From an uncultured Lachnospiraceae bacterium (GTDB lineage: Bacteria; Bacillota; Clostridia; Lachnospirales; Lachnospiraceae), in contig CAMEOT010000002.1 of NCBI GenBank assembly GCA_945929965.1, forward strand, positions 124,001-188,000: DNA of 64,000 bases. Direction: 5' to 3'. Below, piece after piece: positions 42,441-46,772 of this stretch (its first letter is position 1; the number at the start of each line of letters is the position of its first letter). Below the pieces are notes generated by a model. It saw nothing but the letters and a program-made list of their open reading frames with translations, had not been told where the DNA came from and did not search any database. The position numbers and the translations under genes are program-made.

Positions 42441-42623
42441 CTTATTGTAATACCCACGAATTGCTCCCCTGCTTTGCAGCTTTCGCAATTCTACAAACAT
42501 TCGGATTCCGCTGATTTGCTTCGCAAATCGCTTTTTCCTCATGTTTGGGCGCTTTTTCGGTTCATATGCCTTATCATGCAAGCATGAACGGCATCTAAAC
42601 CCAAAAGTTGGTATTACAAATAG
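42441..42623. repeat. ~183-bp inverted-repeat-bounded element with internal hairpins
   Basis: Ends CTTATTGTAATACC (42441) and GGTATTACAAATAG (to 42623), 12/14 complementary; internal GATTTGC-TTC-GCAAATC, GAATTGC...GCAATTC, TTTGGG...CCCAAA. Confidence 0.6.
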
Positions 42624-46396: not shown

Positions 46397-46408
46397 TAAA
46401 GAAAGTAT

Positions 46409-46652
46409 AGACGCCCGCGGGGAATGAAACATCCTTCCTCGATGTAAGGTCTCCCGGTGGGAATTTTCTGACGAAAAGCGAGGAACGGTTCTCATCATGA
46501 CGGGGTCGCCTACACGCGCCCTCCATAGCGCGGATCGGCTGACGCGGACATCGTGTCCGCTTTCCCGCTGTCTTTCAACACTTTTCGAGAAAATGTCACC
46601 ACCTCCCTACAAACATCCTCGGAAGGACATTCCATCCACCGCGGGCGTTCTG
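46409..46652 (-). ncRNA. Candidate large structured non-coding RNA (~244 nt); strand tentative
   Basis: Closing stem ACGCCCGCGG/CCGCGGGCGT plus TCCTTCC/GGAAGGA and GGAATG/CATTCC; internal GCGGACA-CGA-TGTCCGC and ACATTTT-CTCG-AAAAGTGT hairpins. No coding ORF; U-rich tail after the closing stem on the minus strand. Confidence 0.65.
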
Positions 46653-46678
46653 CATCCTAGAAAGCTTTAGAAAAGCCA

Positions 46679-46764
46679 GTAGCCCCGGCTGGGTATAAGA
46701 AACGCGGCACGCTCTGCGACAGAGTGCGAGCGTGCCGCGTTTCTTATACCCTGTCAGGGGCTAC
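46679..46764. repeat. 86-bp near-perfect palindrome
   Basis: 24-bp perfect arms GGGTATAAGAAACGCGGCACGCTC / GAGCGTGCCGCGTTTCTTATACCC, flanked by GTAGCCCC/GGGGCTAC. Confidence 0.9.
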
Positions 46765-46772
46765 GGAGATTC

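Follow-up and report, generated by a model that had tools for sequence, protein, structure and literature searches.

The window analyzed here is a stretch of 64,000 nucleotides of contig CAMEOT010000002.1 from the genome of an uncultured Lachnospiraceae bacterium (GCA_945929965.1), referred to below as the source genome. The region of interest is flanked by genes encoding a histidine kinase and a response regulator, a Na/Pi-cotransporter-PhoU protein, and subunits of an [FeFe]-hydrogenase. It contains a long hairpin on the minus strand (Table 1), preceded by a separate hairpin module that begins directly after the stop codon of the kinase gene (46775-46773). A first-pass annotation had proposed a large structured RNA at this place; all strings quoted in it are present on the minus strand (46652-46409), and, as it stated, no gene-like open reading frame extends across the interval. 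Neither a promoter-like site upstream of this copy nor a terminator-like site after its closing stem was found.

Table 1. Features of the structured region in the window; positions are counted from the first nucleotide of the window.
Feature	Position	Strand	Basis
Complete hairpin: outer arms and TwoAYGGAY core	46409..46652	-	Sequence, fold; limits match the repeated unit
TwoAYGGAY core (RF01731), full model 1-168	46448..46611	-	78.3 bits, E 1.3e-11
Hairpin 1, GCGGA-C[ACGAU]G-UCCGC; pentaloop, GGA lost	46544..46560	-	Sequence, Rfam alignment, loop comparison
Hairpin 2, hexaloop AUGGAG, U.G closing pair	46515..46532	-	Sequence, Rfam alignment, loop comparison
5' module, long hairpin GTAGCCCC...GGGGCTAC, short T-rich tail	46669..46772	-	Aligns with 5' modules of GAM79 and with copy T12 of the source genome
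Decayed right end, boundary approximate; CTAACT..TTA motif missing	46401..46408	-	Alignment to intact copies

The minus strand of the hairpin folds with a minimum free energy (MFE) of -120 kcal/mol, compared with -89.0 +/- 5.05 kcal/mol in dinucleotide shuffles (z = -6.1; none of 200 shuffles was as good), and the folding of the plus strand is weaker (z = -4.75). The region does encode a structured RNA with conserved, covarying hairpins, and the minus strand was correctly chosen as the RNA strand. As for the individual stems of the first-pass model, the end-to-end stem and the stems of hairpin 1 (GCGGACA/TGTCCGC) and hairpin 2 (CGCGC/GCGCG) belong to the conserved fold, but neither of the local hairpins, ACATTTT-CTCG-AAAAGTGT or CTTTTC-GTCA-GAAAAT, is part of the conserved pairing. 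The Rfam consensus and the MFE fold both show these strands joined across the junction, UUUUCU to AGAAAAU and GAAAAGUG to CGCUUUUC.

Comparison with Rfam assigned the RNA to the TwoAYGGAY family (RF01731), the match covering the full model length and scoring far above the gathering cut-off of 43 bits; the outer stem is longer than the model and reaches past its limits. Weinberg et al. (2010; PMC2864571), who described TwoAYGGAY, considered it a probable RNA, and it has been without an assigned function since then. The window copy shares with the family the two hairpins on a closing stem and differs from it in the loops, ACGAU (shortened) and AUGGAG (changed) standing in place of the AYGGAY-type loops. 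No other Rfam family, including raiA, 6S, OLE and HEARO, with which a comparison had been suggested, gave a meaningful score here with E values of up to 10 allowed, and raiA (RF03072) had zero matches across the source genome. What spoke for an RNA of one of these types was only size and general shape; the likeness to raiA is one of size class only, the fold being different. A raiA-, 6S-, OLE- or HEARO-type identity, of which the first-pass annotation had favored raiA as a guess, is refuted at the level of sequence and structure, and its probability is close to nil.

Nor is the RNA a discrete single-copy gene between two operons: it is one of 16 dispersed RF01731 copies above the threshold in the source genome, and its ends are decayed. 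Thirty copies were found in the relative Lachnospiraceae bacterium GAM79 (G006; AP018536.1, one contig of 4,078,671 bases), 13 and 12 in two congeners, and none in 27 of the 36 congeners. In a phylum sample of 401 genomes, 34 passed the RF01731 cut-off and 52 had matches at E <= 0.001; most of the RNA-bearing genomes have at least several copies each, up to six being scored per genome.

When the copies in the source genome are aligned, the part that repeats is about 250 bp long, running from -41 to +207 relative to the core, and it has the limits given for the stem in the first-pass annotation. In GAM79, the unit is mostly found within near-identical modular elements of 465-700 bp with inverted ends, and 18 of the 23 intact elements have at least seven partners each at >95% identity. 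A terminator-like module is located directly upstream of the RNA in these elements. They start with TA-A[AC]TGGAAAGTTAG or TA-AATTGAGAGTTAG and end with the inverse; in intact elements the inverted ends are 13-14 bp long, with TA at the outer start and finish. TA adjoins 22 of the 23 left and 20 of the 23 right ends of the GAM79 elements and may be part of the ends; among the sites compared there was no clean empty site with a single TA, and a target-site duplication is not separable from the ends. The end motif occurs 56 times in the source genome, 37 of the occurrences being within 350 bp of a contig end (expected 1.4%). Since the motifs cluster at contig ends, the elements break the source-genome assembly. 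Compared with the GAM79 elements and with copy T12 of the source genome, the window copy has the 5' hairpin and TwoAYGGAY modules, both inverted ends being gone. The RNA family is a known one, of which the window copy is a genuine though decayed member; the element that carries it is present in high copy number and resembles miniature transposable elements (MITEs). In another place of the source genome (C5:34568-35486), the same inverted ends enclose no TwoAYGGAY core and the interior is taken up by short hairpin units in tandem array.

A MITE is a short element mobilized by a transposase whose gene is located elsewhere, and the Correia/NEMIS and RUP elements are MITEs linked to IS630-type transposases. 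Many near-identical, non-coding copies with shared terminal inverted repeats (TIRs), which define a MITE, are present in both GAM79 and the source genome, but the window copy itself has lost the repeats. Like Correia/NEMIS and RUP, the elements are short non-autonomous intergenic repeats with foldback structure and inverted ends with TA at both outer edges. Unlike them, they have other ends and a modular interior with a conserved RNA family, and the source genome has no IS630-type DDE_3 domain; no match to this domain was found in three element-rich congeners (G007, G008, and G010) either. A single IS630 transposase copy is present in GAM79, where it is unlinked to the elements, and an IS630 transposase was rejected as the current mover. 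No TIR-bounded copy examined contained a transposase, and the single open reading frame within a TIR-bounded GAM79 interval does not encode one. A phage or plasmid carrier was also rejected (no plasmid match; two unannotated, unverified virome contigs only, one of them with cellular-looking open reading frames). Insertion of the core into pre-existing hairpin tips is not supported, since what looked like an empty arm at C9:67979 is an asymmetric core deletion.

Occupancy of the sites varies between species. The window locus has no element in GAM79; in Waltera intestinalis it is occupied, directly from the kinase stop codon, by another element whose ends are the same. Two GAM79 sites, L072 and L086, have no element in the source genome, a lone end-like motif being retained there at L086. 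Two further sites (C9/L079 and C6/L070) carry an element in both species, the contents differing or the orientation being inverted, and two copies without recognizable ends (T04/L064 and T16/L087) are found in the same place in the source genome and GAM79. As sites differ in occupancy and content between species, element presence is dynamic, from which we infer transposition; as several sites are common to both species, some copies are either old or exchanged by recombination. Dispersal of the element is well supported. In the source genome, one element (C34:13336-13952) joins the flanks of two separate GAM79 element loci (L089 and L071), a sign of rearrangement by recombination between copies.

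For the core hairpins (39 sequences), the covariation score was 0.714, shuffled controls giving 0.177 and slid ones no more than 0.207; covariation, the absence of which the first-pass annotation had named as refuting the RNA, is strong. The outer arms pair within a copy with a mean score of 24.4, versus 6.7 (99th percentile 12) when paired with the arms of other genomes, and when arms were swapped between copies of one genome in G010, G008, G034, and G007, every such pair scored below the worst true pair. In G010, the core is nearly invariant between copies and the arms differ. Outside the source genome and GAM79, the arm mismatches comprise 201 G-U and 219 A-C, without G-U excess; because the two kinds are equally common, the arms bear no signature of selection on the RNA strand, and their maintenance at the DNA level is possible. 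Long outer arms are missing from most of the six distant order-sample loci compared (L050-L055). At other loci in distant Lachnospiraceae (L097-L102 of G307, and L045-L047), apparent inverted-repeat arms of at least 200 bp surround the TwoAYGGAY core, although chaining in the alignment may account for part of this length. Arm alignments of over 250 pairs, the longest obtained, may string together unrelated sequence, and no conclusion rests on them.

Rfam files RF01731 under Cis-reg, and the window copy does lie directly upstream of the hydrogenase operon, on the same strand, as would be expected of a leader of these genes. However, the best promoter-like site (TTGATA-17-TATAAT, 46353-46325, minus strand) falls between the element and the hydrogenase genes. 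In GAM79, with genes defined by simple ORF calling, half of the copies (15 of 30) are located between convergent genes, the others being antisense (8) or sense (7) in tandem contexts, with none between divergent genes; all 30 adjoin at least one gene 3' end, and a downstream gene on the same strand follows only the seven. Because the copies are not 5' leaders, the Cis-reg label is not supported, and the discoverers themselves scored TwoAYGGAY as probably not cis-regulatory (PMC2864571). Given the gene context and the promoter position, a leader function of the window copy is very improbable. In annotation, the label would mislead in the source genome and its relatives: in the source genome and GAM79 the copies are dispersed repeats at gene ends, and TwoAYGGAY, until now a "cis-regulatory candidate", is better seen as a module of a dispersed element present in many copies. 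Many elements begin exactly at the stop codon of the neighboring gene; with A as its first base, an element inserted next to TA would recreate a TAA stop. In the literature consulted, we found no description of the element anatomy, the copy-specific arms or the placement at gene ends.

The loops of the family are hexaloops (A-N-G-G-A-Y) or pentaloops (A-GGA-Y) with a C-G closing pair. At least one C-A(N)GGA[CU]-G hairpin was found in all 17 distant genera (two in 13 of them) and in all 29 genomes of the order sample, compared with zero on the antisense strand and approximately 0.001-0.004 sites per core in shuffles. This motif equals the published CsrA sites, namely the SELEX consensus RUACARGGAUGU, CAGGA(U/A/C)G of CsrB, and the hexaloop ANGGAN seen in the structure of RsmE (PMC7652899). 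TwoAYGGAY has already been proposed as a CsrA-binding sRNA by Gardner and Eldai (PMC4333381), and no later CsrA binding test was found in the literature searched. In most copies of the source genome, GGA is present in one loop only: in hairpin 1, 12 of the 16 copies (25 of 30 in GAM79) read ACGAU and lack GGA, and hairpin 2 is AUGGAU in most copies other than that of the window. A recurrent ACGAY pentaloop takes the place of GGA in several lineages. The window copy keeps GGA only in hairpin 2, the loop of which has a non-canonical closing pair, the canonical C..G pair and the last pyrimidine being lost. Judging from the loops, CsrA binding is a good reading for the family and a weak one for the window copy, which is probably a weak CsrA binder or a relic; CsrA binding would be the most likely molecular activity of intact copies.

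Candidate csrA genes are present in 49 of the 52 RNA-bearing genomes and in 245 of the 349 genomes without the RNA (Fisher p = 8e-5, kinship ignored). This co-occurrence is weak evidence, because FliW tracks the RNA equally and motile lineages are a confounder. In one genome (G522, 94% complete) with at least six RNA matches, no CsrA was detectable. The source genome has three csrA matches. Its canonical csrA adjoins fliW, and divergent extra csrA paralogues (about 64-66 bits) were observed at C1:264908 and C48:10181 of this genome, as well as at C1:3905192 of G006.

Taken as a whole, we consider it probable that the window contains a decayed copy of a dispersed non-autonomous MITE-like repeat whose TwoAYGGAY module can bind a CsrA dimer. 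The elements would have been moved by transposition, using a transposase encoded elsewhere. The TwoAYGGAY module is a long hairpin, its tip being a junction with two small hairpins, and a transcript of it should hold one CsrA dimer across the two C-A(N)GGA(U/C)-G loops; collectively, the many copies could form a distributed decoy that lowers free CsrA. Several observations would fit a purely selfish palindromic repeat, whose hairpins are needed for it to move as a cruciform or a folded single strand of DNA and whose GGA loops are recognized by an unknown recombinase and not by CsrA: the copy number is high and patchy, within each copy the arms are complementary along at least 50-100 bp with no G-U bias, orientation relative to genes is near random in the tandem contexts of GAM79, and GGA is repeatedly replaced by the ACGAY pentaloop. 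However, distant genera keep A(N)GGA(Y) loops on one strand only and in exactly the CsrA consensus, and the DDE_3 searches mentioned above identified no recombinase, so that a role confined to movement seems rather unlikely.

CsrB/CsrC and RsmX/Y/Z are many-site sRNAs of Gammaproteobacteria. TwoAYGGAY resembles them in having hairpin loops with A(N)GGA, of both the pentaloop and the hexaloop type, and may act in a similar way, but it has one or two sites per RNA in many dispersed copies, occurs in Lachnospiraceae and other Clostridia, and its CsrA binding is predicted from the loops only. A free-standing CsrB-like gene for a CsrA-sequestering sRNA, multiplied by ordinary duplication with no mobile carrier, would agree with the loop motif and the two-site architecture, with the excess of CsrA in RNA-bearing genomes, confounded as it is by FliW, and with the two copies kept at the same place in both species. 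Such a gene is difficult to reconcile with the near-identical elements with common ends at many loci, with the terminator-like module directly upstream of the RNA in GAM79 elements, and with the lack of a promoter-like site upstream of the window copy, and we regard this explanation as improbable. Returning to the MITE-like repeat with a CsrA-binding module, a broader scenario can be put forward tentatively, in which a mobile element spread CsrA-binding hairpins to dozens of clostridial gene ends, the arms diverging between copies while remaining self-complementary, and thereby gave rise to a decoy tuned by copy number, which would be the first RNA antagonist of CsrA there. If CsrA does bind, Clostridia would have RNA decoys of CsrA, spread by mobile DNA, besides the protein antagonist FliW. 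Both the binding of CsrA by these RNAs and the identity of the mover are now testable in cultured gut bacteria.

The neighborhood of the hydrogenase genes contains several other candidate elements. A Clostridiales-1 RNA (RF01699, 110 bits), a member of another Rfam family without known function, is located at 42448-42616 on the minus strand, directly after the stop codon of the hydrogenase large-subunit gene. In the hydrogenase upstream region (46397-46254 of the window, minus strand), the TTGATA-17-TATAAT promoter is flanked by the palindromes ATGTAAGCTCTTACAT (46397-46382) and TGTAAGCGCTTACA (46267-46254), which look like operator sites. Between this promoter and the hydrogenase start, a terminator-like hairpin, AGTCGTGAAAACGACT (46301-46286, minus strand), is followed by a T run and could be an attenuator.
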